Of a DNA stretch of 64,000 nt, positions 13,207 through 34,920 are shown piece after piece. Made by a program: the position numbers and the translations under genes. The stretch is from Macrolepiota albuminosa (lineage: Eukaryota; Basidiomycota; Agaricomycetes; Agaricales; Agaricaceae): contig JAMWFC010000051.1 in the NCBI GenBank assembly GCA_027475525.1, positions 881,205 through 945,204 of the forward strand, read 5' to 3'. A model generated the notes under the pieces. That model made no database searches and was not told the DNA's origin. It saw only the letters and a program-made list of their open reading frames with translations. Each line of letters starts with the position of its first letter. Positions within the stretch are counted from its first letter, which is position 1.

Positions 13207-14147
13207 TGATGACACCCAAAGTTTTGGTCAGCAACAAATGTAACAAAAGTGTTGCCGGTACCAAGAGCTTGCGTTGGGCGCGCTAAAAGTAATATGAGGA
13301 GTCCCGGGCAGGTCCCAGAGAACGCGCCTATGAAAAAGAGGAAAGTCGGTAACGGGGTCGGCAAGTGTCAAGCGCTAAGGTAAAGCGCCTAAGGAAAATG
13401 CGGTAAGTGAACACGGCAATGTGAGCGGCAAGAGCACGATATGCTTAGCGAAGTCTAAGCGTCGATAATGCCTGCCGTAGTTGCAAGGCGCGAGTATGTC
13501 GAGTGTTGGCGAGCGTCTGCAACTGCCGATGAGTTTTGACGTTGCTGACCATAGCGTAAATGAGCTCTTGAGCGTAAGTGAGACTGAAGTAAGTGGGGGA
13601 AACTCTGGTCTATTGTTCTGATGATGTATGTACAAGTCGGTAAGTAATATATATACTACAAGGAGTTCACCGTCGCCAGTGACCAACCATCGCCAAAGTG
13701 CGGTAAACTGGAAAATTTCATAGGGGTAGCTCCAACGGTTTCAGATTCCTACCGTCCTTTCAAGACCCTTGGCGCCACCAGGCGGCAGATCGCGGTGCTA
13801 AACCATCAATCCATCACCCTTCTGTCTGCCCAAAGTGCTTAGCGATGTCAGGCGCCGAATCGAGACGCTAAGCGGTGTCAAACGCCAAGGTCAAACGCCA
13901 AGCTGTCCATCAGTTTTTGATAGATCATCAAGCTTCTCACTAAGCGCTGTCGTCAGTGACTGATGCCATCTGTCAGTTGTCATTCCTGCTGCCGTCGGCG
14001 CTATCATTGGTTGGATCTGCTTCTTGCCGTGCACGGCCATCAAATATTGCCCAAATTGGATAATTAGCGCGTGCTAAGGTATTTTGAGTTGGTGCCGCGT
14101 TGCTGTCGCCTGCCGTTGATGTGCTGATCCTGTATGGGGTCCTATCA
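13207..14147 (-). repeat. LTR A (3' LTR of element A)
   Basis: On the plus strand it begins TGATGACACCC and ends GGGGTCCTATCA, about 941 bp, homologous over its length to the 952 bp LTRs B and C but with scattered substitutions and small indels. Confidence 0.85.
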
Positions 14148-14317
14148 TCTCCCCCCAACTGAAAAATTGACTGTCCTCAGTCACCAAATATGGTTACCGT
14201 TACTGCTTTTGTGACAGGTGGTCCGTGCGTTCTTGAAATTTTGTTTATAGTCCTGGCACGTGAGTTTGGACTTCGTTTCTTCTCCCCATCTTTTTCCTGG
14301 CGCTCCAATAAAAAAAT

Positions 14318-15227
14318 ATGTCTTTCCGTATTCCAACTCCTCCCCCCGTTCCGTCTCAGGCTGCTCAAGAAGCCGCCTACGCATACATCGCTAAGGCTAA
14401 CCGGTTTATTCGGCACATCGAGGGCGTTGGCGCCGAGGCGTCTCAAAATTTGGTGGTTGGCGTCATGAAGCTGCTGGAGAAGTGGTATGAGGTGAGGGTC
14501 CTTGGCGTTGGCTGGGATCGCGAGATCGAGGTGCGGGAGTGGTGCCGTGCCTGCTATGTGGATAATCGTGGCGCGGAGTGGTTAGCGCCGTTTTCTCGTT
14601 TTGTAAGTGCTTTTAGCCCTTGCCGTGTCGCTTAGCTAATTCCTCCCTAGGCGCCTCCCCCCGTCCTTACTATCGAAGATGAACTTGAGGACATCCTTTC
14701 TGGCGCGTTGCCGATGACCGTAAGCGCATCGGCAACAGAGTAAGTAGCTTCTGACCTTCCCTTCTCTAGCTATGGACTGAACTGTCTCCTCGTAGTAAGC
14801 AAGAGGTACTGGAGCCCCTTGCTCGATTGCAAATCGAGCAGGAGCAGGAGGAGGCTGCCGCTGCTGCTGCCGCGCACTCCTTGGCGGTGGCAAGGGCCGA
14901 GCTCGCCAAGGAGCAGAAGAAGGAGTCCGTTGCCGAGGGTTCCAGCAAGGGGTCTCGCGCCGGCAGTGTTCAGAGCCCCACACTGCCGGCAGGCACACAG
15001 GGTTCGCCTACAAAGCCTGGCAAGGCTTTGAAGAAGAAAGTGAGTCTGCCGTCATTGGTGTTTCTTCTTACCGATGGTAACTTTTGCTAGTCTCGCAAGG
15101 GAAAAGGTCCTCAATACGAGGTATGCCGTCGTGACTCTTTGCCGACTTTCTACTGACTCTCCCCCAGCTCCCTAGTCAGACCACTTTCGACAACAAGGAG
15201 TTGAAGGGTCTGCTCTTGCCGCGCCGG
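14318..15227 (+). pseudogene. Antisense zinc-cluster gene of element A, 3' part missing
   Basis: Exons 14318-14602, 14651-14739, 14796-15039, 15091-15120 and 15168-15227, all bounded by GT..AG. The first exon is 285 nt and the second 89 nt, exactly as in Gypsy-2; the third is 27 nt shorter and the fourth 3 nt longer, so all differences keep the frame. The protein starts MSFRIPTPPPVPS, has an Ala/Glu-rich coiled-coil stretch, and stops at ELKGLLLPRR where the Gypsy-3 LTR begins. There is no internal stop in these exons. The zinc-cluster exon is lost. Confidence 0.75.
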
Positions 15228-15628
15228 TGATAGGCTTCTACTCGGACTGAGCGCATCAAGGGACATTATAGGCCAACCGACACTTGATGTATTCAGGACT
15301 CTAGCGACCAGTTGGGAATATAGAGCAGCTCTAGCTCTGGCAAATTACTACAGGATGTGGAAACTTATCCTAACCCCTAGCTACCAGGCCTACAGCGCAC
15401 TCCTTTCACCTAGCCCAAGGACGAAGGAGGCTCATAACGTATAGCGCTAACACAACGGCGGGAGAGGACTATAACTAAACCCCGATCACTTCCAGAAGGA
15501 GCCAGCAGCAGGCGCCGCCATTGGATGAGGCACTTCAATCAGAAGTCTAAAGGGATCAATGACGGCGGCACTGGATATACTTAAATCCGACATCTGGACC
15601 GGACAGGAACTAATACAATGAGTAGCGC
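15228..15628 (+). repeat. Gypsy-3 5' LTR, left part
   Basis: Starts TGATAGGCTTCTACTCGG, like the pol-sense start of the Gypsy-2 LTR (TGATAGGACC). It continues at 27231 on the other side of Gypsy-2; together about 1.07 kb. It contains no gene. Confidence 0.75.
15625..15628. repeat. Target site duplicate GCGC left of Gypsy-2
   Basis: GCGC stands directly before the LTR and is repeated at 27231-27234. If the boundary is moved by one base a 5 bp duplicate GCGCT is also possible. Confidence 0.75.
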
Positions 15629-16657
15629 TGATGACGCCCAAAGTTTGGTCAGTAACAAATGTAGCAATTGTGTTACCGTACCAAGAGTGTGCGTTGGGCG
15701 CGCTAAAAGTAATTTGAGGAGTCCCGGGCAGGTCCCAGAGAACGCGTCTGTGAAAAAGGTGAAAAGTCGGTAACGGGTGCCGGCAAGTGTAAGCGCTAAG
15801 GTAAAGCGCCTAGGAAGAAGCGGTAAGTGAAGACGGCAAGGGTGAGCGGCAAGAGCACGATAAGCTTAGCGAAGTTCTAAGCGTCGATAATGCCTGCCGT
15901 AGTTGCAAGGCGCGAGTATGTCGAGTGTTGGCGAACGTCTGCAACTGCCGATGAGTTTTGACGTTGCCGACCGTAGCGTAAATGAGCTCTTGAGCGTAAG
16001 GGAGACTGAAGTAAGTGGGGGAAACTCTGGTCTATTCGTCTGCTGGTCCATTGTACAAGTCGGTAAGTACTTTTATACTACAAAGAGTTCGCCGTCGCCA
16101 GTGACCAACCATCGCCAAAGTGCGGTAAACTGGAAAATTTCATAGGGGTAGCTCCAACGGTTTCCGATCCCTACCGTCCTTGGAGGACCCTTGGCGCCAC
16201 CAGGCGGCAGATCGCGGTGCTAAACCATCAATCCATCACCCTTCTGTCTGTCAGAGCACCTAAGCGACGTTTGGCGCCAAATCGAGACGGTAAGCGGTGT
16301 CAGACGCCAAGGTCAAACGCCAAGCTGTCCGTCAGTTTTTGATAGATCATCAAGCTTCTCGCTAAGCGCTGTCATCAGTGACTGATGCCATCTGTCAGTT
16401 GTCATTCCTGCTGCCGTCGGCGCTATCATTGATTGGATCTGCTTCTTGCCGTGCGCGGCCGTCGGAAATGGCTTAAAATGGGTAGAACGCGTGCGCTAAG
16501 TTCGGAACGAGTGCGGCAAGGTTTCCGGAGCCGGTGCCGAGCCTATGGCTTAAAATGGGTAGAACGCGTGCGCTAAGTTCGGAACGAGTGCGGCAAGGTT
16601 TCCGGAGCCGGTGCCGAGCCTACCGTTGATGCGCCTAACCTGTATGGGGTCCTATCA
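15629..16657 (-). repeat. LTR B (3' LTR of Gypsy-2)
   Basis: Begins TGATGACGCCC and ends GGGGTCCTATCA on the plus strand. 1029 bp as given; 952 bp after removing the duplication at 16468, the same length as LTR C. Confidence 0.9.
16468..16621. repeat. 77 bp tandem duplication in LTR B
   Basis: 16468-16544 equals 16545-16621. LTR C has the unit once. Confidence 0.95.
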
Positions 16658-16667
16658 TCTCCCCCCA
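16658..16667 (-). promoter_or_regulatory. Polypurine tract of Gypsy-2
   Basis: On the minus strand TTGGGGGGAGA abuts the LTR start TGATAGG. This is the plus-strand primer site expected just upstream of a 3' LTR and fixes the element's orientation. The same text stands next to LTR A at 14148. Confidence 0.75.
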
Positions 16668-16816
16668 ACTGAAAAATTGACTGTCCTCAGTCACCAAATA
16701 AGGCTACCGTTACCGCTTTTGTGACAAGTGGTCCGTGCGCCCCAACTGAAAAATTGACTGTCCTCAGTCACCAAATAAGGCTACCGTTACCGCTTTTGTG
16801 ACAAGTGGTCCGTGCG
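16663..16816. repeat. 77 bp tandem duplication next to the Gypsy-2 polypurine tract
   Basis: 16663-16739 equals 16740-16816. It lies in the leader of the antisense gene; element A has the unit once. Confidence 0.9.
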
Positions 16817-16872
16817 CTCTTGAGATTTGGTTTATAGTCCTGGCGCATGAGTGTGGACTTCGTTTCTTCTCC

Positions 16873-16875
<3 letters not shown>

Positions 16876-16906
<31 letters not shown>
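16876..16906. repeat. T31 tract upstream of the antisense gene
   Basis: 31 T on the plus strand, ending 20 bases before the ATG at 16927. Element A has only a run of five T at this place, so the tract has grown or is a sequencing estimate. Confidence 0.9.
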
Positions 16907-16926: not shown

Positions 16927-19319
16927 ATGTCTTTCCGCATTCCAACTCCGCCCCCCGTTCCTTCTCGCGAGGCTCAAGACGCTGCCTCTTCCTATATCGC
17001 CAAGGCCAACAACTTTATCAAGCGCATCGAGGGTGTGGGCGCGGAGGCGCCTTCAAACTTGGTGATCGCGGTAATGAAGTTGTTGGAGCGCTGGTACGAG
17101 GTCCGTGTCCTTGGCGTAGGCTGGGACAGGGAGATAGAGGTGCGGGAGTGGTGCCGGGCGCGCTATGTGGATAACCGTGGCGCGGAGTGGTTAGCTCCAT
17201 TTTCTCGTTTTGTAAGTGCTTTCAAGTCCTTGCCGTGTCGCCAACTGATTGGGTCCCTAGGCGCCTCCTGCCGTCCCTACCATCGAGGACGAGTTGGAGG
17301 ATATCTTGTCGGGTGCCTTGCCGATGACGGTAAGCGCTCCCGCGCCTGAGTAAGTAACTCTGATTTTTATCTCTAACTTAGCTGTGGTCTGACCTGTCGC
17401 CTCATAGCAAGCAAGAGGTGTTGGCGCCCCTGGCGCGCATGCAGGTGGAGGAGGAGATCGCGACACGGCAAGAGGAGGTTTCCCGCGACTCCCGTGAGAT
17501 TATGAGGGGGCTAGAGGAGCGGGAAAGAGCAGCAGCCTTGGCGGCGGAGATGGAGGAGATTGCGGAAGGAAAGGCGCCTGCCGCCAAGAGGCAGGAGACT
17601 GAAGAATCCGGCAAGGTAGGTCGCGCCGGCAGCACGTCGAGCTCGCCGAGGAAGCCGGCAGGTGCTTCCAAGCGTAAGGTAAGTGCTGATTTTCGCTTGC
17701 CGTTGCCGACGGTCGCTAACGACCTTCGCAGAGTCGCAAGGCGGCTCCTCAATACGCGGTAAGTGGTCTTTTCTTTTTGTACGGAAATTACTAAGTCTTT
17801 GTAGGCGCCAACACAAAGCTCCTTTGACGACAAGGAGCTCAAAGGATTGTTGTTGCCGCGTCGTGAGGAGGCAGTCCTTGATGAGGGGCAAGAGGCCGGG
17901 GTCGTTATGGAGGAGATGAAGGGAAAGAAGACCGTTTCCCTGGCGACCCGGCAAGCGTTCAAGGAGGCGCGGGGAGCGGTAAGTGATTTTTTTTGGTTCC
18001 TTTAGTTTCTTGCTGACTTTTAGCGCTAGTGCGACAAATGCTGGGCGGACAACGACCCAGAAGGCTGTTGGTTCCCGACTGGGGCCCAGCCGTGTTATCG
18101 TTGTGGCGCCCTCAAGCGCGCCTGTACTATCGACGGGGCGAAAAGTCGCGAGCGTGGCGGCGCGCCAGATGCTTTGGTCGAGAAGACGTTCTCGCGCGCT
18201 GTGTTGGTGAGGAGGGCCAGGGAGTTTGTGGAGGGCCAGAAGAGGAAGGTTGCCGCAGGAGGGATGGCGGCCATTGGACGTGCCTCCTTGGCGTTGCCGA
18301 CGCGCCAAGGAGATGGGACGGAATCAGTCGGCAATCGAGGCGCCGGCGAGCGCCAAGGGACTTCGGTCCCAGAAAAACGTCAAGCCCCTTCCCCAAGCAA
18401 AGGGAAGGGCAAAGCAAAGCGCCCTCGTGTGGTCTCGTCGTCGCCTTCCCCCTCGCCAACGCCTCGCGATACCGAGATGGCCGACCTGGAGAAGGCGTTG
18501 GCGGCGAGTCGCCTGCCTCCTCGCGATTCTGAGGCAGGCCCAAGTGGCCTCCTGTCGCCTATTCATTTGGCGGCGAGGTCCCTTGGCGAGGAGCAGGAGG
18601 AGGGAGAGCGGGAAGCGGTTGGCGACACGGCGCCTCAAGAGGAACGGGAAGAGGCTCCCGTCGACATCGAGATGGGGGAGGAGAAGGCAGAGGGAGCGGC
18701 AACGGGAGGAGATGAGGACGCTGAAGGGGAGGAGGACGAAACCTTGGCGACGCAGCGCCAAGGTGACGAGGAGATGGTAGCGGGAGAGGGCAAGGGAGAA
18801 GGGGAGGCAGCGGCAGAAGTCGCCCGGGAGGAGCCTCAGTGGCGTTGGCTGCCGCCTTACGGCAACGTCGCCCCTTGGGAGGTGTCAGATCCTGAGGACG
18901 TTGTAGGGCTGGAGCCAAGGCGTCCCGTGATCGCCAGGGTTAATCCTGCCTGGACCCCGCAGCCGCAGCCGACAGTGACTGGCGACGCTTTCCAGTGGCT
19001 GGGCCAGGACCTCGTTTACCCGGTTATAGCGCTCAATCCTCGCGACATGTTGGAGCGCTATTCCCGGAGAGCGGCAACGATGGAGGCGACTATGAGTCGG
19101 GAACGGGAGCGAGTGCGCGGTCAACTGATGGCGCTGCGACTGCGCTATTCCAACCTGGGTCGTAGCCTTCGCGTGCTTCGCGATTACCAGGGGGATTGCC
19201 AAGCAGCCATGGATTGGCAAGCTGCCAATAACATTCTTCCTGGCGACCTTCTCCCCCTTCGCGACTCTTCCTTGCCGGTATCTGACGATTCCCTGTCATT
19301 AGAGGACGATAGCGAGTAA
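16927..19319 (+). CDS. Antisense six-exon gene in Gypsy-2; zinc-cluster-like protein of unknown function
   Basis: Exons 16927-17211, 17261-17349, 17408-17678, 17732-17758, 17805-17978, 18030-19319; introns of 46-58 nt, all GT..AG. The spliced length is 2136 nt, giving 711 residues. Order: a conserved N-terminal region (MSFRIPTPPPVPS, then WYEVRVLGVGWDREIEVREW) of about 95 residues; an acidic coiled-coil stretch; a basic patch; six cysteines at the start of exon 6 (CDKC, C, CYRC, C; spacing CX2CX8CX8CX2CX6C, ending KRACTIDG); a long Glu/Ala/Pro-rich part with a basic KRPR motif; and a C-terminal region with a helical stretch (RERERVRGQLMALRLRYSN). The cysteine array resembles fungal Zn2Cys6 DNA-binding clusters but the spacing differs, so DNA binding is only inferred. 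It is transcribed against gag-pol, so its introns survive retrotransposition. I know no named family for it. Confidence 0.75.
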
Positions 19320-19398: not shown

Positions 19399-19450
<52 letters not shown>

Positions 19451-19783: not shown

Positions 19784-22700
19784 CTAATCATTTTCTTCTT
19801 CTTCAACTAAAGTCGGCAAGTCATCATCGTCCAATAATTCTGTTTCTTCAAGTTCTCGTAACTTGGCGGTGTCGATATCTAGCGCTTCAAGCGGCAAGTC
19901 GAGTCGTTCCCTGGCGAGATACGGTAGTAGGCGAAAAGCGGCAACAGGTCGATGCAGTACTGAACCATCTAGTTCACAGAGCACGTAAGCGCCTCCACGG
20001 TTACGGGAGATAACTACCAAAGGTCCAAGATAGCGCGGGCGCATTTTCTTGTTGTAAGAGGTCTCGATTTTGGAGTTGCGCATGAGCACTAGCGCTCCTC
20101 TCGGGAAGTTGTAATCTTTGATGGTGGCGCTATGCTCGGTTTCGAATCGTAGGGCTGCTTGGCGACGGGCGCTGAAGACTACCTCGTGGAGTCGCTCTAA
20201 ATCTTCTTTCCTTCTTTGGAGATCAATAGCTCGTCTGGCGACAAGGTCGGTAGTCGCTAAGATACTGTTGGGTGCTGGCTGAAGATAGGTCGCTTCTATA
20301 ATGTCGGCAGGGAGTAAAGGATGGGTGCCAGTAGCCGCGTAGTAGGGAGAGCAACCCATGCGCTTACGAATAGTAACTCTTTCCGACCAAAATACTGAAT
20401 AAGTCGCTTCACTCCAACGAGACTCGTCGCCATCGACTGCCTTAAAGAGCGCTTGCCGAACGTCAAAATGTGGTCTCTCTACCAGGCCATTGGCGCGTTT
20501 GTTATAGCCAGATACTCGAATGTGATGGATATTGTATTTCTTGGCGAGGTATGTTAGCGCTTTGATGATGGGCGCACCGTTATCCGTGACGATTTCCCTT
20601 AGCGCTCCCCAACGGCAAATGACGTCTTCAAATAGCCACTTGGCGACCGCGTCGGTATTTTCTCTTTGAAGCATTCGAAATTCAGGCCAGTGGATTAGCG
20701 AGCAACGACCTTGAATGATGTACTTGTAGCGACCAGATTTGGGCATGTGCATGGTATCGACGTAGATTTTGCTGAAGAGGGGAGCTGGCGTTGCAACGGT
20801 TGGCGGTATGAGCACTTGGCGTGTCTGTTGGATTTGGCAGAGGTGGCAGGTCCTGATGTACCAGGCGATGTCGGCACTAGCGTGTGGCCACCAGAAGCGT
20901 TCTAACAGAGAAGCTCGAGTAGCGTACAGACCTCTATGACCTAGCTCGTCATGCATAGCGCGCAAGACTCGTAAGCGACCTTCTGGCTTGATGATCAGCT
21001 TGTGGGCTCCATCTCGATTTCGTCGCCAAAGTCTGTTGTCGGTAAAGAAGAAACGGGTAGCGTAGCGGATAAAGGTCGCGTATTGTTCGTCGGTAAGGCC
21101 TGCGGGTCGCTTAAGGTCTTGTAGCCACTGTTCAACGATTAACAAGCGGCTGTCTTCTGCCTTTGCTTTGGCGGATCGGGGGACGGCATCGTAGGTCAAG
21201 TTTCTGCTGTCTTCCCTTAGCGGATGGGGCTCTTGTACGACTTTTACTGGAGGCGAATTTTGACTGAAAATGCTTGCCGTGTAGAATGTGAGGGGTGCGC
21301 TAAAGGTCTCGGGGCGGTAAGGGACAATGGGATGTAGAAGGATGCTGGCAGGCTGTTGCCGTCGTAGTAAGGGAATTGGCTGTTGTATGAGGTGCACGAA
21401 ACCATGTAAGCGGTCGATCCAGTCCTCGAAATCGCTATCAGCCTGAGGGTCCACTACCGGGTCGCCAGGCTGCCGTGGTCGCCTAGAGAGTCCATCTGGG
21501 CCGTGGAAAGAGCTCTTGACGTGTACCAGCTCAAAATGGAACATGAGGATGGCGACTACCCACCGATTCATGCTAGCGGACGGCTGGATATCAGGATTCT
21601 GCAGCATGCCCTTGATGTACCTAGCGTCGACTTCAACAATCAGATTCCGCACGCCAATCAAGTACATCTTTAGCGACCGGAAGGCTTTGAAGAGTCCATA
21701 GAGCTCTAGCTTAGGCTGACTGTAGCGAGACTCCCTGTCGTTTAGCGTAATAGACCCAAAGCGGTTGTAGCGTCGCTGTTTCCGATTGTCGCTAAGGCAT
21801 TGGCACAAAAAGTAGCCAACGGCAATGTACGAGGTATCCACCGCCAAGATAACAGGATCGGCAGAGCTATAGTCGATGGGAACTAGGGGCTTGGCGTCCT
21901 GCAGAGCTTTTACCAAGTCTCGTTGAGCGGTAACCTGGTCTGGCCCAAATTCGAAGGGCTCGTTAGCGCGGGTGAGTCGGTTAAGGGCATGTGCGCGATG
22001 GGCAAAGTTTTTGACGAATATCCTGAGAACGCCAACGGTGCCAAGAAAGGCGCGAACTTCAGATAAGTCGCGGCAAGGACCCCATCGCTCTAGGAGTGCT
22101 AAGCGAGACTCGTCGGGAACGCGACCGTCGGGAGTGCAGATGTGACCAAGTATTTTGAACTTAGGCGCGCAAAGGAGGAGTTTGTGACCGCTAAAGGTAC
22201 CACCGCTATACTTCATACGTTGGAGAACTCGGTTGAGCAACTGGAAAAAGTCCCATAACGCTAAGCGAATATTGGGGTTCTCGGGATGGGTCGCCGGTAA
22301 GCCGTTCATGAGTCGCCAGTCTTTGGGGCCTTTGACGCCAACGTCATATTGGGGTTCTCGGGATGGGTCGCCGGTAAGCCGTTCATGAGTCGCCAGTCTT
22401 TGGGGCCTTTGACGCCAACGTCGTCAATGAAGCTTAAGACGTTATGCGGTATCTCGGGTTGGAGGATGAATGTGATGTCGTCATGGAATATGGGGACTGA
22501 GTTTGTCCAGCCCATCGGCAAGGTGACTAGGCGCAGTGCGCCAAACGGAGTTTGAAAGGTGGTGAGGTCACGGGAAGATGGGTGTATTAAGCGTTCATCG
22601 TAGCCAACATAAAGATCAAGGGTGGCGCCACAGACACGCCCGGCAAAGGACTCGGCAAAGTGGTCAGGGAAAGGCGGTACGCCAGAGTGTCGTATGGTTA

Positions 22701-23610
22701 CTCTATTCAGCGGCTCAAGACTGTGAACTATGCGTAGATTGCCGTTCTTTTTGAGAACACAGAACCAACGGGAGCGGTAAGAACTATTAGAGGGCTCGTA
22801 GACGCCAGCCTGTATCTTAGTCCTAATAATCTGGCAGACCTCGGCTTCGATTCCAGGCGGTAACGGTCGGTTGTGCTCAGTCCACGGCACGTGAGGGATG
22901 GTCGGGATTACGACAGGCGGGAAGAAATCTGTGCGAAGGCTGCCGCGTTCTGAGTCCTCCCAAGCAAAGGCTTTGTCTTGCTTAGCGACAAGATCGGTAA
23001 GGACGTTCAACTCATCTTTGGTCAAAAATCCTGTGTCGTGCTCCTTGGCGAACTGCTGCTGGCGTTCCTCGGTAAAACGTCCTGTGGGCTGAAAGGGTGG
23101 CGGATTCGGCGATAAGGTCGGCATGTCGGCAAGAGGGTCGCCAATGATCTGGCGCTCGATTCTAAAAGTCTCGGGAGAGTGCGTAGCAACGGGTTTTGTT
23201 TTAAGCGCAACTGGCTTATATTTCTTTTTAACTTGTACCCCTTTCCTTTTGGGAGCGTTAGCTTGGTTATATACAGAAGTGGAAAGGGGAACTGTAGCCT
23301 GAGGAGCGGCAAGTCCAAGAACGGCAGGAGACGAGGCTCCGGGAAGAGTGGTAAGATAGGTATCGGTAGACGCAAAACTTTGAAACGATTCTGAGGCGGT
23401 AAGATATAAGTAGGCAAGAGAGGAGTCGGTAATATTTTGATTTTTCTGGGAAGGCTCTGCGTCGGTAGTGGGTAAAGTAGTTAAAACGTCTTCGTCAAGA
23501 AAAGCAGTAGACAAAACAGTTACAAGACCAGTTGAATGGTCAAATTCCAGCGTTAGCGCCACATCTCCGTGATCATTGCCAATCACCTCCTCGATGGTCT
23601 GTGAAAACAC
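19784..23610 (-). CDS. Gypsy-2 pol: reverse transcriptase, RNase H, integrase
   Basis: After collapsing the duplication at 22269 this is one frame of about 1249 residues. RT: LDLYVGYDERLI, FGALRLVTLPMGWTNS, and the catalytic box SFIDDVGV (Phe-Ile-Asp-Asp in place of Tyr-x-Asp-Asp). RNase H: LAVDTSYIAVGYFLCQ and the NDRESRYSQPKLELYGLFKA stretch. Integrase: an HHCC zinc domain (HDELGHRG...CHLCQIQQ) and a DDE core with Asp in IYVDTMHMP, Asp in VTDNGAP and Glu in GLVERPHFDV. No chromodomain is visible; the tail is acidic (ELLDDDDLPTLVEEEE). The frame overlaps gag-protease by 28 bases in the -1 frame. It starts without an ATG at the overlap, so it is probably made as a frameshift product. Confidence 0.9.
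22269..22422. repeat. 77 bp tandem duplication in Gypsy-2 pol
   Basis: 22269-22345 equals 22346-22422. It splits the RT frame between GPKDWRLMNGLPATHPENPN and IRLALWDFFQLLN. Confidence 0.95.
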
Positions 23611-25895
23611 CGGTGGGGTCGTTCGTTGGCGTGCTGGTCGGTAAACTCCGGTGGCTTAGCGAGGGCGCCTTTTCGTTGTCCCCTAGGGAACGTTGGCACC
23701 GTTCGTCGGATTCCGGAATTAGGGTCGCTAATGGTTAATGTCGTCTCGTCGTCGGTAACAGTCTTGACGACTGATCGCGCCAAGACGTCGAAGGGTCTGC
23801 CGAGTAATAAGTCGTATGCTGGGGAGCGTAAGATGTGTATCTGAAGGTAAAATGTAATGTCGCCAAGGGTGCATGGCACGTTCTTGGCGAGGCCTAAAGA
23901 TCTGTCCACTGTACCGTTAGCGCTCTGCATGTTTAATATAACGGTAGGGTCATAAATGAGGCCTAAATCGTTAGCGACTTCTGCTGCCATAGAAATGATC
24001 TGGGAACCGCTATCCACGATCGCCTCTACCTCGTGCTTGTTGTCTACCGTTAGCGCGACTGAGCGGATAGCGTGTGATTCTTGAGCGACGGTAAGGATAG
24101 CGGGGTCCTCTCCATGGTCCACCGACCTAAGGTAGGTCTCCACTGGGTCCACAGAGGTGGCGTTAGCGATGGAGTCGGCAGATGTATCTTCAGTGTCGGG
24201 AGCGTCAATGGTAACAGAGAAACCAGGAAGCGCGTCGTCGAGTTCATCAACCTCGGCAACGGCTGTCGCCAAGGGTCGTCGAGGAGTGACTGCCGTTTTG
24301 ACCTGGTTGCGGACGTCGGGAGCAATACTGCAAAGCTCTTCTACTGACAAGGTAACGGCGGTTTTCATGATGCGGTTAAAGACGTGGTTCGATTTTTCTA
24401 TGTCGAAAATTGGCGCGGTAGGTCGGTAGCCACCCTCAGGACGCTTCTCGGGAGCGGCAAAGTTTCGTTGTGCGGGAGCATGGTAACGGTCGGGAATCCC
24501 TGAGTAGGGATGGAGAGGCGGCAAAGGCGGTTCGGGAGCGGTAGCGGACGACGAGGGTTCTGGAGCAGGAGCAGGAGCAGTAGCAGGCGGTGCGGCAGGA
24601 GAAGGTGTCGGTAACTTGCTAGCGGGAGGCATTGGCTTGTATCCTTTAAGAGGTTGTTTAGGCTGCTTAACTTCAACCCCATCAAAGACCTGGTTCTTTA
24701 GCGAATCTAATTCCTGCTGCAGCTTGGCGATACGCTCTTCCCGCGAGAAAGTAGGGTGGTCGCCAACGCTGTCAAAATGTAGGACCTCGTGAATCATCTG
24801 CTGTTGGGTCGCCTGTTCGGGGTCGGGGTTAGCGTTGCCAGATAGCGTGCCGGTAACGATTTGTCCTGGGTTGCGCCTATGCCATTCATCAACTCGCTCC
24901 TGGAAGGACTTCTTGTCTGGGTAGTTGGGGATGGTGGCGCCAGTGGTGAGGACTATCTTGCCGTCGATAGCTCGTCGAATTCTACCTTGGCGAACGTAAT
25001 TCTCGAGGGTAGCGCAGCGTCCTCTAGTCATGGTGTGGCCAATTTCCCCACAGAAGTGGCAAGGGCCAGGTGCGGGTACGTTAGCGGGTCGGTTAGCAGT
25101 CAGGTTGGTGGTAATCATAGTTTCGATACGTGTCATCGCGGAAGCGACAGCGGCGGTAATGGCAGCATTGAGCTCCTCTTTCTTAACGAAGTCGGTAGTG
25201 GGAGGCGGGATGGGAATAATACCGTTGGTTCGCTCAGGGGGTGGGCTCGTCCTAGCGCGTTGTATACCAACGCCAGTGTCCGTTCCCTTGAGAACCCATT
25301 TACCGGCTTCAAAGACGTCGGCAACGTTATAGGGCTCGTCTGGGTGATGAGCCTGATGAACTATCTCTAGGCGACGAGCAATACGCGTCCACAGTGAAGT
25401 CGGGATGCCCTGCTGAAATAGGCGACGCTCCTCGTTAATATAGAGCTTGCCGTTCTGCAGAAGCCACCTAGCGACTTTCTGGAATTCGCGGTAATATGTA
25501 GAGAATGCGCCAAGCGACGATGTGCCACTGTCGAAAGATTCCTGTACTAGTTTCTGTAACTCGTTTACCGTGTATCGGGTAGCCTCCTCGGCGCCAGGGT
25601 ACAGCTGGATAACTGCCGTCTTCCAGTCCTCATACGAAGCGCCTTGAGCTGGAGCTGGCGGTGCGGCAGGGACAAAGGCGGCAAACTCCGTAAGACCTGT
25701 CCACGTCTCTGCCGTGTCATACGATACGTATCTTGCCGCGTACTCCTTCATCTGCGTGTGGTCGGTAATGTTACAATCTCTGAATAGATACTCCAACTCC
25801 TTGAAATACTGGGAGAGCTCCCGTGGCTTGGTCTCGTCCCATTTCGGTGCCGAGAAGTGGTTGCGTGGCGGCATGCGCTGGACTTGTTGTTCCAT
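23583..25895 (-). CDS. Gypsy-2 gag-protease polyprotein
   Basis: 770 residues from the first ATG (MEQQVQRMPPRNHF). The capsid-like region holds DETKPRELSQYFKELEYLFR, QLYPGAEEATRYTVNE and RRLFQQGIPTSLWTRIARRL. The zinc knuckle CHFCGEIGHTMTRGRC has the spacing CX2CX4HX6C, two residues longer than the usual last gap. A Pro/Ala-rich linker leads to the aspartic protease (AIVDSGSQIISMAAEVAN, and LLLGRPFDVLARSVVK). The frame stays open upstream of this ATG with text like the Gypsy-3 leader, so a non-ATG start further up is possible. It ends with TGA at 23583-23585, inside the start of pol. Confidence 0.88.
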   Translation of the reverse strand: MEQQVQRMPPRNHFSAPKWDETKPRELSQYFKELEYLFRDCNITDHTQMKEYAARYVSYDTAETWTGLTEFAAFVPAAPPAPAQGASYEDWKTAVIQLYPGAEEATRYTVNELQKLVQESFDSGTSSLGAFSTYYREFQKVARWLLQNGKLYINEERRLFQQGIPTSLWTRIARRLEIVHQAHHPDEPYNVADVFEAGKWVLKGTDTGVGIQRARTSPPPERTNGIIPIPPPTTDFVKKEELNAAITAAVASAMTRIETMITTNLTANRPANVPAPGPCHFCGEIGHTMTRGRCATLENYVRQGRIRRAIDGKIVLTTGATIPNYPDKKSFQERVDEWHRRNPGQIVTGTLSGNANPDPEQATQQQMIHEVLHFDSVGDHPTFSREERIAKLQQELDSLKNQVFDGVEVKQPKQPLKGYKPMPPASKLPTPSPAAPPATAPAPAPEPSSSATAPEPPLPPLHPYSGIPDRYHAPAQRNFAAPEKRPEGGYRPTAPIFDIEKSNHVFNRIMKTAVTLSVEELCSIAPDVRNQVKTAVTPRRPLATAVAEVDELDDALPGFSVTIDAPDTEDTSADSIANATSVDPVETYLRSVDHGEDPAILTVAQESHAIRSVALTVDNKHEVEAIVDSGSQIISMAAEVANDLGLIYDPTVILNMQSANGTVDRSLGLAKNVPCTLGDITFYLQIHILRSPAYDLLLGRPFDVLARSVVKTVTDDETTLTISDPNSGIRRTVPTFPRGQRKGALAKPPEFTDQHANERPHRCFHRPSRR

Positions 25896-26278
25896 AGCGA
25901 CTGGGTTGGCGAGTTCGGTTAGCGGTTGTGGGGAAGGAGTTCTAGAGGTTGGCGACGGGGTGAGCGAAATGACGAGTTGTGAAAGCGGTGTTAACGGAGT
26001 GATAGGGGTAACTGATTGCGGTAAGGTAAAGGGCGACGCTAAGGGGTCGTCGGTACTATAATCGAGGGAATGCGGGAAGAGATCAGGAAAAGCGTCTACA
26101 GTGGCGTTCTGTAGTTCCTGGGCTAGAGAGAGACCCGGTAAGGCACCAGGTGGTTGTGGAGTTGATGGGTGGGAAGGAGCTATGCCTTCTGCCGACTGAT
26201 CTAGCAGGCGGCGCCTACGCTGGAGACGGGTTTCTGGCGGAATTCTGCCCTAGAGATCCCTCGCGGTGGGCTCCAATT
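25896..26278 (-). promoter_or_regulatory. Gypsy-2 leader with primer-binding site
   Basis: Between LTR C and the gag ATG. Next to the LTR (pol sense) is TTGGAGCCCACCGCGAGGG (about 26258-26276), identical in core to the same place in Gypsy-3. TGG fits pairing with the CCA end of a tRNA; I cannot name the tRNA. Confidence 0.7.
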
Positions 26279-27230
26279 TGATGACGCCCAAAGTTTGGTC
26301 AGTAACAAATGTAGCAATTGTGTTACCGTACCAAGAGTGTGCGTTGGGCGCGCTAAAAGTAATTTGAGGAGTCCCGGGCAGGTCCCAGAGAACGCGTCTG
26401 TGAAAAAGGTGAAAAGTCGGTAACGGGTGCCGGCAAGTGTAAGCGCTAAGGTAAAGCGCCTAGGAAGAAGCGGTAAGTGAAGACGGCAAGGGTGAGCGGC
26501 AAGAGCACGATAAGCTTAGCGAAGTTCTAAGCGTCGATAATGCCTGCCGTAGTTGCAAGGCGCGAGTATGTCGAGTGTTGGCGAACGTCTGCAACTGCCG
26601 ATGAGTTTTGACGTTGCCGACCGTAGCGTAAATGAGCTCTTGAGCGTAAGGGAGACTGAAGTAAGTGGGGGAAACTCTGGTCTATTCGTCTGCTGGTCCA
26701 TTGTACAAGTCGGTAAGTACTTTTATACTACAAAGAGTTCGCCGTCGCCAGTGACCAACCATCGCCAAAGTGCGGTAAACTGGAAAATTTCATAGGGGTA
26801 GCTCCAACGGTTTCCGATCCCTACCGTCCTTGGAGGACCCTTGGCGCCACCAGGCGGCAGATCGCGGTGCTAAACCATCAATCCATCACCCTTCTGTCTG
26901 TCAGAGCACCTAAGCGACGTTTGGCGCCAAATCGAGACGGTAAGCGGTGTCAGACGCCAAGGTCAAACGCCAAGCTGTCCGTCAGTTTTTGATAGATCAT
27001 CAAGCTTCTCGCTAAGCGCTGTCATCAGTGACTGATGCCATCTGTCAGTTGTCATTCCTGCTGCCGTCGGCGCTATCATTGATTGGATCTGCTTCTTGCC
27101 GTGCGCGGCCGTCGGAAATGGCTTAAAATGGGTAGAACGCGTGCGCTAAGTTCGGAACGAGTGCGGCAAGGTTTCCGGAGCCGGTGCCGAGCCTACCGTT
27201 GATGCGCCTAACCTGTATGGGGTCCTATCA
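26279..27230 (-). repeat. LTR C (5' LTR of Gypsy-2)
   Basis: 952 bp, TG..CA on the plus strand. Every stretch I compared with LTR B matches. In pol sense it should hold the promoter for gag-pol. Confidence 0.9.
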
Positions 27231-27904
27231 GCGCTGACATTAGCGCTCACGGCGTCTGTTGAGGATTTTCCGACCATATCCTGGAACGGCCTGGCCAATC
27301 GGAGTTATAGAAAAGTGAACAGACTCATACAACTCTAAGTCAATATAGAGTCACCGCAGGTCGCCGTGGGTCATAACGCCGTTGGTCGCCGTCAGCCATG
27401 TGCACAAGGTCGCCGTTGACAGGTCACCGTTAGAGTAAACCACGAGGAGAGGTGCTAGGAGGTAGCGCCGCAGATGGACTTGTATCTTGGCAAACACGGT
27501 AGCGCACTGTATATAAAATAGCTACTTTTCATGTATATAACAACGAATCGTAACCCCTCGAACACACAGTTACACTTAGCGTTCAACTCGCGCTAGCCTC
27601 CTCCGACTTCGTCACTAAGTCGGGCGCTAGCTCCGTCTATCTCGTCTTCATCGTTTACGGTGCCACTTACGGGCACAATACGCTGCGCTACTCGTCTTTT
27701 CTCCAATATCTTTGCCTAAAACCACGACACTAACCGTCTGCCAGGTAGCCCCTGAAGCGCTACAATCTAGCGCATTGTTTTACTACCTCCACTCGAGCAC
27801 ACCGGGACCCTGTCAGGACTCCTCACAACTACGTACGCCAAGCGCTGGAGACGGCGTTGTACTGCGTATACGTCCAGCGCACCCAACCACAGTTGGCGTT
27901 ATCA
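27231..27904 (+). repeat. Gypsy-3 5' LTR, right part with promoter
   Basis: Starts with the second GCGC target duplicate and ends GTTGGCGTTATCA, two bases before the primer-binding site. A TATA-like TGTATATAAAA lies at 27508-27518. No gene inside. Confidence 0.75.
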
Positions 27905-27906
27905 TT

Positions 27907-27923
27907 TTGGAGCCCACCGCGAG
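27907..27923 (+). promoter_or_regulatory. Primer-binding site of Gypsy-3
   Basis: TTGGAGCCCACCGCGAG follows the LTR end after two bases and matches the Gypsy-2 site. Confidence 0.75.
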
Positions 27924-28292
27924 GGGTTCTTCTGAGACAGAATTCCGCCGGAAACTCGAGCCCAGCGACAGCGCCGCCTCCTGTTGGAGAGCGCGCTTGA
28001 ACCAAGTACCACCGAATCACCACACTTACCAGGCGCGCTACCGAGACAGACTTTGGATCAGGAGCTTGAGGCCACACCAGACAGCTTAGCCGAGAGTTTT
28101 TTCCCGTTTTCCCGACCATTTGAATACTTAGCAGGCGAAAACCATACGCCGCTTACGCCTCTAGAAGAGTTATCTAGGCTATTATCGCCAGAACCTAGCG
28201 ACTCGGAGCTAACTGAGCCGGTACCTACGACGTCGACGCTAAGTAACACGAGCACCACCACCCTTCCTACCTCGACAAATACACCTATCGGT

Positions 28293-30652
28293 ATGGAACA
28301 GCCGAACAATCAGCGCATGCCACCCCGAAACCACTTCTCGTCGCCAAAATGGGACGAAACGAAACCTCGCGAACTAACGCAGTACTTCAAAGAGTTGGAG
28401 TATCTGCTACGCGACTGCCGGGTGACCGACGATACACAGATGAAAGAATACGCCGCCAGATACGTCTCATACGACACAGCCGAATCATGGACAGGGCTGA
28501 AGGAGTTCCAAGGACTTACTAGTGACGCACCACCTAGACCTTTTACCTATGATGAATGGAAAAAGGCTATCATTCATTTATATCCTGGCGCCGAAGAAGC
28601 TACGCGTTATACGGTAATGGAAATCCAGAAGCTAGTACAGGACACCTTCGCGGCTGGTATCTATACTTTAGGAGCACTATCAACTTATTATCGCAATTTC
28701 CAGCGGATAGCGAGATGGCTGGTCCAAAATGGGAAGTTATATGGGAATGAGGAGCGCCGTTTATTTCAACAAGGATTCCCGACTTCGTTGTGGACTAAGA
28801 TTGCGCGACGCTTGGAGATCATTATGCATGACCATCACCCCGAGGAACCATACGACATAGAAAAGGTCTTTGAGGCAGGAAAGTGGGTATTAAAGGGCAC
28901 GGATACGGGTATACCATTACAGCGACCTGGGGCGGACCATGGAGGAATGGCACCCAAGACAGAGTCGCCAGCACCTAGCGCCGCCAATGACCGTAATGGG
29001 TACGTCAAGAAGGAGGATTTGGAGAATGCCGTTAACAATGCAGTCGCTAACGTCATGAATAAACTGGAAACCTTGATCTCGACTAGTCTTTCGGCGCCTA
29101 GAAACAACGTACCGACGGGACTTTGCCATTTTTGCGGCGAGGCAGGACATACCATGACCAGGGGTAGGTGCGCTATTCTTGAACAATATCTGCGACAAGG
29201 GAAGGCGCGCCGGGGAATGGACGGGAAACTAGTCTTACCCTCGGGCGCTATCATTCCCCTATATCCCGAGCATAAGACGTTCCAGGGACGCATTGACGAG
29301 TGGCACCGTCGGAACCCCGGGAACTTAGCGACAGGCAACCTGAATAGCACGACGACAACAGAAGCGGAGGCGACTCCTCAACAAGCACTAATTCACGAGG
29401 TACTCCAGCTAAACGCTATCAGTGACCGACCCACGCTGTCCCGCGAGGAAAGGATTGAGACGCTAGAAAAGGAACTGAGGTCGCTAAAGAATCAGGTCTT
29501 CGATGGAGTGGAGATCAAAAAGGGCAAACAGCCTTTAAAGGATTACAGGCCGTCGGGCGCGACGACAGGCCCCGCCCCAACACCAGCCTCAACCTCTAGC
29601 ACTAACGACAAAGTACCAGAAGCCACCAAGGCGCCGGCCGTTCCGGAACCACCGCTACATCCTTACGCTGGCCTAGGGGGCAACTACGCCCCGCCCCTAA
29701 ATCGTAACTTCGGAGCGCCAGATAAACCTACGGGGGGATATCGACCCACAGCGCCTATATATGATCTGGAGAAGTCGAAGTTAGTTTTTGATCGCATCAT
29801 GCAAAGTCGGGGGGATATCGACCCACAGCGCCTATATATGATCTGGAGAAGTCGAAGTTAGTTTTTGATCGCATCATGCAAAGTCAGGTTATGCTATCGG
29901 TAGGAGAGTTATGCAGCGTGGCGCCAGATGTCAGGAACCAGATGCGTACCGCGGTTACCCCTCGACGAAACGTAGCTAACAATGTAGCGACGGTGGACGA
30001 ATGCGACGACGCGCTGCCTGGTTTCGCATATATAACCGAGACGGTAGCTCCTGAAACCAAGGAAGAGGTCGCACCACCTAAAGAAGCCACGTCCGTTGAC
30101 CCGGTCGAAACCTACCTCAAATCGCTAAGATCTAGCGACGATCCCGCCATCTTGACTGTAGCCCAAGACTCTCACGCGATTCGCTCAATTATGCTGACAG
30201 TTGATGGGAAAAGCGAAATAGAGTCGATCGTGGATAGCGGATCCCAAATTATTTCAATGGCTGCCGACGTCGCTAACGAGCTGGGTATCATTTACGATCC
30301 AACAATCATTCTTAACATGCAGAGCGCTAACGGCACGATTGATCGATCCTTGGGGATGGCTCGGAACGTGCCATGTGCTATAGGCGATCTAACGTTCTAT
30401 CTACAAATTCACATACTTAGATCGCCTGCCTACGATTTATTATTAGGAAGGCCCTTCGATGTGCTAGCCCGATCAGTAGTCAAAACAACGTCCGAGGAGG
30501 AAACGACGCTAACTATTAGCGACCCCAATTCTGGAGTCAGGAGAACGGTACCGACATTTCCCCGAGGGAGGTTCCAGAAGCCTGGACCAAGAAAGCGACC
30601 TTACGTTAGCGACGAACCTTGCGAGTGTTTTCCGGCGCCATCGAGGAGATGA
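28293..30652 (+). CDS. Gypsy-3 gag-protease polyprotein
   Basis: One frame of 760 residues from ATG 28293 (MEQPNNQRMPPRNHF) when the duplication at 29731 is collapsed. An open frame upstream from about 27984 lacks an ATG but reads like leader sequence shared with Gypsy-2. Capsid-like region, zinc knuckle CHFCGEAGHTMTRGRC (CX2CX4HX6C, near 29123-29170), Glu/Lys-rich helix (LSREERIETLEKELRSLKNQ), Pro-rich linker, aspartic protease (SIVDSGSQIISMAADVAN, LLLGRPFDVLARSVVK). The stop TGA (30650-30652) overlaps an ATG of the pol frame as ATGA. Confidence 0.88.
29731..29884. repeat. 77 bp tandem duplication in Gypsy-3 gag
   Basis: 29731-29807 equals 29808-29884. It splits gag from protease after DLEKSKLVFDRIMQSR. 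Confidence 0.95.
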
Positions 30653-33600
30653 GTGATGAGGATCATGGAGATGAAGCGCTTGTTTTGGACTATAATCATC
30701 GGACTGGGCAAGTAACCCTTATATCATATACCCCTTTAGCCCCTGAGATCTTGAACACTTCTACGTCGCTTACTAGCGAAGCGTTATCCTACTTATACCT
30801 CACTGCATCCGATATTACTGAAAATCTTTCGACAGACACTTATTTCGTTTCTTCCCCTGATTCTAAAGAACCTTTGATATCCGGTTTCGCTAGAAACCAG
30901 AGTTCCATTTATAATACGTTTGCTAACAACAGTACCCCTAAGCGCAAAGGGGTTCAGGTTAAAAAGAAATACAAGCCAGTAGCGCTTAAAACGAAACCGG
31001 TAGCGAGCGGCGTACCCGAAGAATTTCGCATCGAAAGAAAGATCATTGGAGACCCGTTAGCGACCCTTCCAAACCGGTAGCGAGCGGCGTACCCGAAGAA
31101 TTTCGCATCGAAAGAAAGATCATTGGAGACCCGTTAGCGACCCTTCCTGAGCTTAATCCGAACCCGCCACCCTTTGAGCCTACTGGACGATTTACGGAAG
31201 AACGACGAGCGCTATTCCTTAGCGCCCACGATACAGGCTTTCTATCGACGGCGGAACTAGATGTATTGACCGACATTATGCGAAAACAAAACGAGGCATT
31301 TGCTTGGGAGGATTCCGAACGCGGTAAACTGAGAACTGACTTCTTTCCGCCAGTGGTTATACCAACGATACCTCACGTACCTTGGACCGAGCATAACCGC
31401 CCTATACCGCCGGGTATTGAAGCTGAAGTTTGCCAAATTATTTGTTCCAAAATAGCGGCAGGAGTTTACGAGCCTTCCAATTCGGCATACCGGTCACGAT
31501 GGTTTTGTGTACTGAAGAAAAATGGAAAGCTACGTATAGTTCATAGTTTGGAGCCGCTAAACAAAGTCACGATTTGTCATTCAGGGGTACCGCCCTTCCC
31601 TGATCACGTCGCTGAATCGTTCGCGGGAAGAATATGTGGCGCTACCCTGGATCTGTACGTTGGCTATGACGAGCGCTTAATTCACCCTGCCTCTCACGAC
31701 TTAACGACATTTCAAACGCCATTCGGAGCGCTACGACTGGTTACACTTCCCATGGGGTGGACGAATTCGGTACCCATATTCCACGACGACATTACGTTTA
31801 TTCTACAACCCGAAATACCCCACCATGTGCTTAGTTTTATCGACGATGTTGGCGTTAAGGGCCCAAAAGATTGGCGCCTTGTAGATGGCAAGCCCGAAGT
31901 GCACCCGGAAAATCCTAATATCCGCATGGCGCTATGGGACTTCTTCCAATTGGTCAACCGGGTGCTTCAGCGCATGAAATATTGTGGTGGAACGTTCTCA
32001 GGACACAAGTTGGTTCTTTGCGCGCCACAATTTAAAATTTTAGGGCACGTTTGCACGCCAGAAGGCAGGATCCCTGAGGAGAGCCGATTAGCGCTTCTAG
32101 AGAAGTGGGGAGTCTGCCATAACCTCTCGGAAGTTCGCGCGTTTCTAGGCACGGTAGGCGTGCTGCGCATGTTCATACACCATTTTTCACATCGAGCGCA
32201 CGCGCTAAATCGCTTAACTCGTTCAGGGGTCCCCTTCGAATTCGGACCCGACCAAATTAACGCCCAAAAAGACTTAGTGAAGGCACTGCAGGAAGCGAAG
32301 CCATTGGTACCCATCGATTATACTACATCTGATCCAGTTATACTTGCCGTCGACACCTCTTACATCACGGTCGGCTTCTTTTTATGTCAATGTGATAGCG
32401 CGAATCGAAAAATCAGACGCTACAATCGCTTCGGATCAATTACCCTTAACGACAGAGAGTCGCGCTATAGCCAGCCCAAACTGGAATTATACGGATTGTT
32501 TCGAGCGTTTCAGGCGCTACGCATGTATCTTATTGGGGTTCGAAACCTGATCGTCGAAGTCGATGCACGCTACATCAAAGGGATGCTTCAGAACCCAGAC
32601 ATTCAACCTTCGGCTAGCATGAATCGCTGGGTAGTAGCGATACTAATGTTCCACTTCGAGCTCGTGCATGTTAAGAGTGCGTTTCACGGACCTGATGGAC
32701 TATCTAGGCGACCTAGGCAGCCGGAGGACGAAGCGCTAGACGAAAGCGATAACGACGTATTTGACGACTGGATTGACCGGTTGCACGGTTTCATACATAT
32801 TATTCAATTGCCTATTTCGGCCCTTCGCGAAGACCAACCTATCTCAACCTGGCTACACCCTATCATTCCGTACCAACCTAAACCGTATCAGGCTCGGCCC
32901 TTCGCGAAGACCAACCTATCTCAACCTGGCTACACCCTATCATTCCGTACCAACCTAAACCGTATCAGGCTCCATCGACTTTTTACACGGCCAGTATCTA
33001 TAACGTCGCTAAGCCGCATAATGATCTAAAGATAGTCGAGGAACCAAGACCCTTACGGGAAGATAGTCGCAACCTTCCATATTCGGCGGTACCTCGTAGC
33101 GCCAAGGCTAAGTCAGAAGACCAACGAGTTGATCAGGTTAGGAAATGGTTACAGGATTTGCGCCGACCATCAGACCTTACGGACACGGAATACGCCACCT
33201 TCATTCGATATGCAACGACTTTCTTTATGGTTGAAAATCGGCTTTGGCGACGAAATAGGTCTGGCGCGCACAAATTAGTAATCAAGCCCGAGGGCCGCGT
33301 CAGGATTTTGCGCGCTATGCATGATGACTTGGGACATCGAGGACTCTACGCGACGCGGGCGAATTTATTGGAACGTTTTTGGTGGCCTCAAGTTAGCGCC
33401 GATATCGCATGGTATATTCGTACTTGTCATCTCTGCCAAATCCAACAGACGCGCCAAGTCCTTATTCCCCCAACCGTAGCGACTCCAGCACCCTTGTTCG
33501 GAAAAATATATATCGACACTATGCACATGCCCAAGTCGGGGCGCTACAAGTACATTATTCAGGGAAGGTGTTCTTTGGTACATTGGCCGGAGTTCCGTAT

Positions 33601-34282
33601 GCTCCAGCGGGAAAATACCGACGCTATAGCTAAGTGGCTCTTCGAAGATGTTATTTGCAGATGGGGAGCCCTTCACGAGATTGTTACAGACAACGGAGCG
33701 CCGATAGTTAAGGCGCTTACCTACCTCGCTAAGAAATACAACATACAGCATATTCGGATCTCAGGATACAATAAACGCGCTAACGGTATAGTGGAAAGGC
33801 CACATTTTGACGTACAACAGGCGCTATTTAAGGCGGTAGACGGCGACGAAAGTCGCTGGAGCAAAGCGACTTATTCGGTCTTTTGGTCTGAACGAGTTAC
33901 CGTACGGAAGAGGATGGGCTGCTCTCCCTACTACGCGGCGACTGGCACCCATCCCCTGCTTCCAGCAGACGTTGTGGAGGCAACATACCTACAACCCCCA
34001 CCTAACTCAATCCTGTCCTCTACCGACCTTATCGCTAGGCGCGCCATTGACTTACAACGACGCATGGAGGATCTAGAGCGCCTACACGAGGTGGTATTTC
34101 AAGCTAGACGACAAGCCGCATTACGATTTGAAAGCGAGCATAGCGCTACTATCCGAGACTACAACTTTACAGCTGGCGCCTTAGTGCTAATGCGCAACTC
34201 AAAAATCGAAGTAACCCATAACAAAAAGATGCGACCTCGATACCTAGGGCCCCTCATAGTCGTTTCCCGCAATAGGGGAGGA
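30649..34282 (+). CDS. Gypsy-3 pol: RT, RNase H, integrase; C-terminus lost
   Basis: The frame is open from 30619, with the first ATG at 30649 (MSDEDHGDEALVLDY) overlapping the gag-protease stop. It is -1 to gag. RT has GALRLVTLPMGWTNS and SFIDDVGV; RNase H LAVDTSYITVGFFLCQ; integrase zinc domain HDDLGHRG...CHLCQIQQ and DDE residues in YIDTMHMP, VTDNGAP and GIVERPHFDV. Two 77 bp duplications (30994, 32817) are the only frame breaks. The reading leaves the family sequence after RNRGGA, so the last 60-70 residues seen in Gypsy-2 are missing. Confidence 0.85.
30994..31147. repeat. 77 bp tandem duplication at the start of Gypsy-3 pol
   Basis: 30994-31070 equals 31071-31147. Confidence 0.95.
32817..32970. 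repeat. 77 bp tandem duplication between RNase H and integrase of Gypsy-3
   Basis: 32817-32893 equals 32894-32970. Without it IIPYQPKPYQA runs on to the integrase frame. Confidence 0.95.
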
Positions 34283-34920
34283 GCACCGGAGGGGAGACGA
34301 ATGGCAGCGTTAGGCGGAGCAGAAGGAGCGACTGGAGGAGGAGGTACGGGAGCGCGAGGAGGAGGCACGGGAAGTGCGATTGTAGGTGGAGCGCGGGAAG
34401 GACCCGGGGGAGCGGCGGGACGAGTAGGGGACGAGTACCACCCGGCCTCGTCCAAGCAACGCTCTAAAGCTGTGAAAGGAACGATTACGCGGTCAAGCAC
34501 GGCTCTACTAGCGCTAAGGTTGACGAGAACCGGAAGAGGGAGCCAGGAAAGGCTCTAGAAAAGGACAGGGAGTTAGCTAACCAAAGCTAGGCGAAAAAGG
34601 GGTATAGGTACTAACCAAACCCCCGGTCTCGTGGAGAAGACTATGAAGGCTCAACGCGGTACCAGTAATGGTCTGCTCCTACGACACACATAAGTATTAC
34701 CTAAAGCATGCGCTAATAAAGGGTTTACGGTGACTAGGGCCGGGTCCGTATCTATCTCCCATTCGGCAGAGGCCGCTAGCAGGATCCGGTATCGGCGCAC
34801 AAGGGTCAATATGTTGCTGTTCTCCTGCGGAAAGCCGCTGTCAGGCATTAACGCGAGGAAGCGCTTGAGGCGATCTAGGATGAGAGGCCGGTGAACGAGT
34901 ACGGGGTCATCAAGAAGGAC
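34283..34920. other. Unassigned CpG-rich segment after the Gypsy-3 break
   Basis: No recognisable gene or LTR. One plus frame reads like a broken coiled coil (ERLEEEVREREEEAREVRL) with TAG stops on either side, so a decayed repeat gene is possible. The composition matches the Gypsy nest and not the AT-rich DNA that begins at about 34921. Confidence 0.4.

Follow-up and report, generated by a model that had tools for sequence, protein, structure and literature searches.

The window analysed here is a 64,000-nucleotide stretch of a Macrolepiota albuminosa contig. It contains a Ty3/Gypsy element, Gypsy-2, which lies on the minus strand, ends in TG/CA LTR termini and is flanked by a 4-bp GCGC target-site duplication. 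Its two LTRs differ only by a 77-bp stretch that is tandemly duplicated in the 3′ one. The element and its immediate neighbor are made up as follows:

13207..15230, plus strand: an older copy, cut short, that retains LTR, leader and exons 1-5 and represents another allele of the antisense gene described below
15629..16657, minus strand: 3′ LTR, including the 77-bp duplication
16658..16666, minus strand: putative polypurine tract, GGGGGGAGA, adjoining the end of the 3′ LTR
19784..23655, minus strand: pol, with RNase H and integrase zinc-binding domains above the Pfam cut-off and reverse transcriptase below it
23583..26249, minus strand: gag-protease frame, with a retropepsin-like protease above the Pfam cut-off and DUF4100 just below it
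26279..27230, minus strand: 5′ LTR

Two overlapping frames make up the pol region, in which position 22269 marks another 77-bp duplication. The older truncated copy is separated from the intact element by 0.4 kb.

Between pol and the 3′ LTR there is an open frame antisense to gag-pol, which is the position of aORF-3R genes. A plus-strand gene of six exons, opposite to gag-pol, had been proposed in this interval by a first-pass annotation, and all exons were found at the places it implied. They span 16927-19319 and sum to 2136 nt when spliced; the proposed 712 codons are correct counting the stop, giving a product of 711 aa. Its parts are:

16927..17211, plus strand: exon 1, the ATG (in 40/40 sequences) and most of a helical N-terminal domain
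17261..17349, plus strand: exon 2, 89 nt long in 40/40
17408..17678, plus strand: exon 3, where the protein varies most (residues 97-215, dN/dS 0.18)
17732..17758, plus strand: exon 4, 27 nt in the window and 30 nt in 11/40, 10 of these with the acceptor 2 bases on
17805..17978, plus strand: exon 5, where the conserved core begins, 174 nt in 40/40
18030..19319, plus strand: exon 6, with the Cys6 core, an acidic stretch, a C-terminal helix and the stop
18030..18125, plus strand: six cysteines, CX2CX8CX8CX2CX6C, kept in 24/24 distinct intact proteins
19041..19232, plus strand: probable counterpart, by sequence correspondence, of the long C-terminal helix of homologue P0001, a possible coiled coil

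Each of the five introns opens with GTAAG and closes with AG. The first of the six cysteines (from 18030) directly follows the end of intron 5, and from there the cysteine order can be read as it had been claimed. The ATG lies 269 bp internal to the 3′ LTR, and 464 bp separate the end of the gene from the stop codon of pol.

A search of the 100-Mb genome with exon 6 as query (98 scored of 1,240 candidates) gave at least 99 matches, with no stop in 69 of 99 rows counted from the table. The C-terminal part of pol adjoins the antisense gene, in convergent orientation, in all 41 fetched copies; judged from this sequence context, the antisense gene belongs to the element. For comparison, 40 fetched copies and L008, minus the partial copies L020 and L027 and plus the window, gave a set of 40 sequences. 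The spliced frame is intact in 28 of these 40 full-length sequences (the window and 39 copies) and broken in 12. Of the proteins encoded by the 28 intact sequences, 24 are distinct; their lengths are 705-722 aa, and CX2CX8CX8CX2CX6C is present in every one. The first-pass annotation had considered that the product might be a random frame with stops in all relatives, and with 28 of 40 intact this is not what the copies contain.

Splice signals are kept as well. All 40 sequences start with ATG; the donors of the 200 introns are GT in 197, GC in 2 and AT in 1, and AG acceptors are present in all five introns, counting ten copies in which the intron 3 acceptor is shifted by 2 bases. Branch-like motifs are found in 37 to 40 of the 40 sequences, depending on the intron. 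Exon lengths vary by multiples of three except in L018 (exon 1 +77), L024 and L036, and every intron falls into at least two length classes modulo 3 among the 40 sequences. No intron has been lost from any copy. That antisense introns persist had been predicted, and the presence of all five in 40/40 fits copying through RNA of the opposite strand; we propose that they persist because the genomic RNA that is copied is of opposite strand to the gene.

Mean pairwise diversity at codon positions 1, 2 and 3 is 0.075, 0.056 and 0.296, and in the introns 0.261. The median dN/dS of the intact copies is 0.102, to be read with dN lowered, since the copies were chosen by similarity to the window protein and are not independent of each other. 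By part, dN/dS is 0.071 at the N-terminus, highest in residues 97-215, 0.036 in the core (residues 226-345), 0.123 in the acidic part and 0.071 at the C-terminus. A median silent divergence of ~0.6 indicates that the copies are not merely young. With the introns as a built-in comparison, 28/40 intact and a Cys core common to element families, the comparative evidence for coding is strong. On the comparison between copies, the plus-strand six-exon gene is real, spliced and protein-coding, and purifying selection keeps the spliced protein functional in many copies.

A second element in the window, Gypsy-3 (27.6-34.3 kb), has an integrase ~87% identical to that of Gypsy-2. On the plus strand at 27600-34300 its DNA is ~73-76% identical to Gypsy-2 in pieces, and the 3′ part is missing there. 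Elsewhere in the genome, at least 58 of 89 Gypsy-3 integrase matches are followed downstream by a homologous exon in antisense orientation, as are at least 55 of 104 Gypsy-2 integrase matches (97-100% identical). The controls for each comparison, among the matches listed, gave 1 exon on the same strand and 0 upstream; 31 Gypsy-3 and 49 Gypsy-2 integrase hits have no antisense exon among the matches listed. In the Gypsy-3 copy L049, introns 1, 4 and 5 are at homologous places by eye, and identity to the window protein is ~42% over residues 225-453. Copy L054 adjoins a Gypsy-2 integrase (98% identical); the allele it carries is unbroken, encodes 661 aa in six exons that follow the order of the window gene, and has 59% identity to the window protein. 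From these alignments, a homologous antisense gene is in the same place in a related Gypsy family, and the Cys core is common to both.

Searches for related proteins were run three times, with 22, 61 and 27 entries listed, every one of them from Termitomyces (five strains); the first two scored only the 7,990 and 7,996 candidates that had the most words in common with the query, and the second was dominated by copies from one strain. No relatives outside Termitomyces were among the matches listed by this method, which requires shared 5-residue words. These matches suggest that the DNA comes from Termitomyces or a fungus close to it.

The 711-aa product matches no Pfam family at E up to 1, and the Cys6 core alone none at E up to 10, where filters drop most matches above ~0.1. 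Twenty homologues searched against Pfam gave four families with one member each (E 0.026 to 0.081), which are read as chance. An AlphaFold2 model of P0001 has a helical N-terminal domain (helices 6-104, block pLDDT ~83-93) and a C-terminal helix at 542-604 (pLDDT ~89-94), separated by a long low-confidence middle, with a pTM of 0.31. The Cys6 core has a pLDDT of ~40 or less and no confident model; it gave one fold match, at E 9.9, and the structural match search found no convincing fold. Neither a DNA-binding family or fold (Pfam, structure comparison) nor an RNA-binding family (Pfam) was recognised in the antisense product.

The Zn2Cys6 binuclear cluster (PF00172) has the spacing CX2CX6CX5-12CX2CX6-8C. 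The core resembles this Gal4 type in its six cysteines within 32 residues, in the CX2CX6C of the second half, in the acidic region and in the helix that may dimerise, but differs in a first loop of X8 rather than X6, in the missing Pfam match and in its place in the middle of the protein. The zinc-cluster likeness put forward earlier holds in part: the spacing fits in the second half and not in the first (CX2CX8C), Pfam has no match, and the core has no confident model. Membership of Zn2Cys6 was rejected, the spacing being CX2CX8CX8CX2CX6C in 24/24 intact proteins with no Pfam match. A regulator-like nature of the product is plausible. The HTLV-1 antisense regulator HBZ is a bZIP protein, and the 711-aa product has no bZIP match in Pfam at E up to 1.

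Genes that lie antisense in this position have precedents in plants and in Botrytis Boty, according to the available part of one report (PMC7264820); a reading of the present gene as the first of its kind is not supported. Boty-like Ty3/Gypsy elements of Botrytis carry an antisense gene, brtn, in the sections available (PMC7264820, PMC8365987, PMC4227169); like Gypsy-2 they are fungal Ty3/Gypsy elements with an extra antisense gene, and brtn is compared here by its description alone. The pol of Boty-like elements is described with a chromodomain in the available text (PMC4227169), whereas none was recognised by Pfam in this element. Plant Grande gene23, RIRE2 and Retand TRP28 occupy the same place and orientation in most copies of their family, as far as the accessible passages go (PMC7264820, PMC11963269). 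In the same passages, Grande gene23 is nuclear and has its own promoter, with a regulatory role proposed and none proven (PMC7264820, PMC11963269), and Retand TRP28 proteins are proposed regulators (PMC11963269). The present gene differs from the plant aORFs in its five introns and Cys6 core, and no Pfam match to TRP28 (PF04195) was found in the window product or its homologues. HBZ of HTLV-1 is, in the available extract, a functional retroviral case of an antisense regulator from the 3′ end of a retroelement, with its promoter in the 3′ LTR (PMC10186651), whereas here the promoter seems to lie internal to the LTR. The roles of antisense accessory genes are reported as unknown in the part of the literature available (PMC7264820). 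The antisense accessory gene as such is therefore already known; what appears new is the combination of features such as five introns, a Cys6 core and a variability in excess of the rest of the element, and no description of an intron-rich, highly variable antisense form of ~700 residues with Cys6 was found among the open-licence papers listed.

Between the 3′ LTR and the antisense ATG is a leader with two conserved landmarks:

16678..16693, plus strand: palindrome TGACTG-TCCT-CAGTCA, arms intact in 40/40
16831..16836, plus strand: TTTATA, possible TATA box of the antisense gene, in 40/40

TTTATA is placed 72-75 nt before the ATG in 34 of 40 sequences. The leader (16621-16860) has a diversity of 0.02-0.055, among the least variable parts of the element, with few countable columns at 16681-16800 because of the 77-bp duplication in the window. 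A second copy of the palindrome (16755-16770) is within that duplication, and the window holds 3 palindromes against 0.15 expected. In four Gypsy-3 loci the 33 bases that run from the polypurine tract through the palindrome recur with no more than one change each; one change falls in a palindrome arm (arms kept in 3/4), and the sequences differ right after the block. A 23-mer including the palindrome has 423 genome sites at up to 2 mismatches, and a control pattern has 0. In DNA the palindrome could serve as a binding site for a dimer, and in the genomic RNA it could fold into a hairpin next to the polypurine tract. The antisense gene probably has its own promoter, beside or internal to the 3′ LTR.

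An accessory gene is present and selected as protein, so what might its role be? We give about an even chance to the reading in which this true accessory gene of the element is transcribed opposite to gag-pol, from a promoter next to the 3′ LTR, and its product acts in the nucleus as a dimeric regulator. Metal and nucleic acid would be bound by the Cys6 core, dimers would form through the C-terminal helix, and host factors would be contacted by the acidic and N-terminal parts. As its target the leader palindrome is the likeliest, lying as it does between polypurine tract and antisense ATG; through it the protein would control its own promoter and the neighboring LTR. Transcription would end before pol. 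The conserved leader, the palindrome arms kept in 40/40 and the long C-terminal helix of P0001 argue for such a regulator. Against it are the 12 of 40 broken frames, the non-Zn2Cys6 spacing, a core with no confident model and no recognised DNA-binding family or fold; the palindrome, which also adjoins the polypurine tract, may have its role in reverse transcription instead. The conserved palindrome is a concrete candidate target, and this gene opens the role of such genes to direct tests.

The same palindrome bears on a different function, in which the protein handles genomic RNA, for example by binding a UGACUG-AGGA-CAGUCA hairpin upstream of the polypurine tract, in export, packaging or strand transfer. 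Read from the sequence, such a hairpin would form by the polypurine tract, and CERV of Caenorhabditis elegans Cer1, an LTR-element accessory protein made from a spliced mRNA as here, is required for genomic RNA export in the portion of the report available (PMC10309623). The likeness is drawn from descriptions of the two, and the CERV mRNA is taken as sense whereas the gene here is antisense. With no RNA-binding family recognised, RNA handling is unlikely, though it fares best among the alternatives to a regulator.

That the protein counters host silencing, or steers integration via a host chromatin factor bound by its N- or C-terminal helices, is distinctly unlikely. The helical N-terminal domain is conserved, as its low dN/dS indicates, and the genome encodes Argonaute-like domains (24 of 26 rows above the cut-off), but no domain of such function was recognised. 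The Argonaute matches include equal-scoring sets on different contigs.

The gene is more diverse than its surroundings. Stepwise along the element, diversity is ~0.04-0.13 in the LTR, rises near 16,870, is 0.06-0.31 in the gene and its 3′ flank and drops near 19,560 to ~0.03-0.10, a step that assembly collapse of near-identical copies could exaggerate. Among 24 intact sequences the median dS is 0.60 in the gene vs 0.24 in pol (median ratio 2.5), and the dN/dS of pol, 0.03, is lower than that of the gene. In 14 copies free of 77-bp duplications the step held: diversity at third codon positions is 0.311 for the gene against 0.149 for pol, the LTR value is 0.076, and 89 of 91 pairs differ more in the gene than in pol. 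Copies L009, L010 and L011, compared with the window, have lower silent divergence in the gene than in pol. The transition/transversion ratio is 1.34 in the gene and 3.61 in pol, the lower value being expected of older divergence.

Such excess silent diversity over pol could point to silencing escape. The gene would then be a hypervariable locus, with old nucleotide lineages of one conserved protein kept inside a more uniform pol and LTR, since sense/antisense overlap would draw homology-dependent silencing or copy-number control between copies. We consider this rather improbable; if true, silent divergence would be an escape or incompatibility type and the protein would regulate the shared palindrome.

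Very unlikely is a role of the antisense RNA more than of the protein, by which it pairs with genomic RNA and limits copy number via small RNAs. All of the gene lies within the stretch that forms the 3′ part of the genomic RNA, the existence of Argonaute-like domains makes a dsRNA effect possible, and the idea has been stated for plant elements in the available part of one report (PMC7264820); a dN/dS of 0.10 and frame-keeping indels nevertheless show selection on the protein. A role-less captured host gene or chance open frames, to which the restriction of relatives to one genus among the matches listed might point, is barely credible given a median dS of ~0.6 with dN/dS 0.10 and homologues in a second Gypsy family and five Termitomyces strains.

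Some features of the assembly affect these counts. The window has 15 tandem duplications (exact, 20-200 bp, low-complexity excluded), all of period 77 bp, at 5330, 6302, 9907, 11365, 16468, 16663, 22269, 29731, 30994, 32817, 47492, 54242, 57166, 57658 and 58605, and 53 more are present in 49 fetched loci. They look like untrimmed k=77 assembly overlaps, and frame breaks at them may be artefacts. Pairwise copy profiles look mosaic; mosaics were not counted as recombination and were set aside as evidence, because the 77-bp overlaps suggest that assembly paths could create them. Several matches recur at a constant offset within one contig, 281,388 bp on C126 and 44,048 bp on C110; with the equal-scoring Argonaute sets, this may mean that copy numbers are raised by large false duplications or by the presence of two haplotypes.

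Runs of T occur at the gene edges in the window (16879-16906 and 19400-19449). As a general feature of gene edges they were rejected, since runs of at least 9 T are found before the ATG in only 4/40 sequences and after the stop in 12/40, several of them of exactly 50 T. Elsewhere in the window, long open frames on the plus strand at 37178-40561 resemble what we take to be a host sulfite reductase flavoprotein gene.
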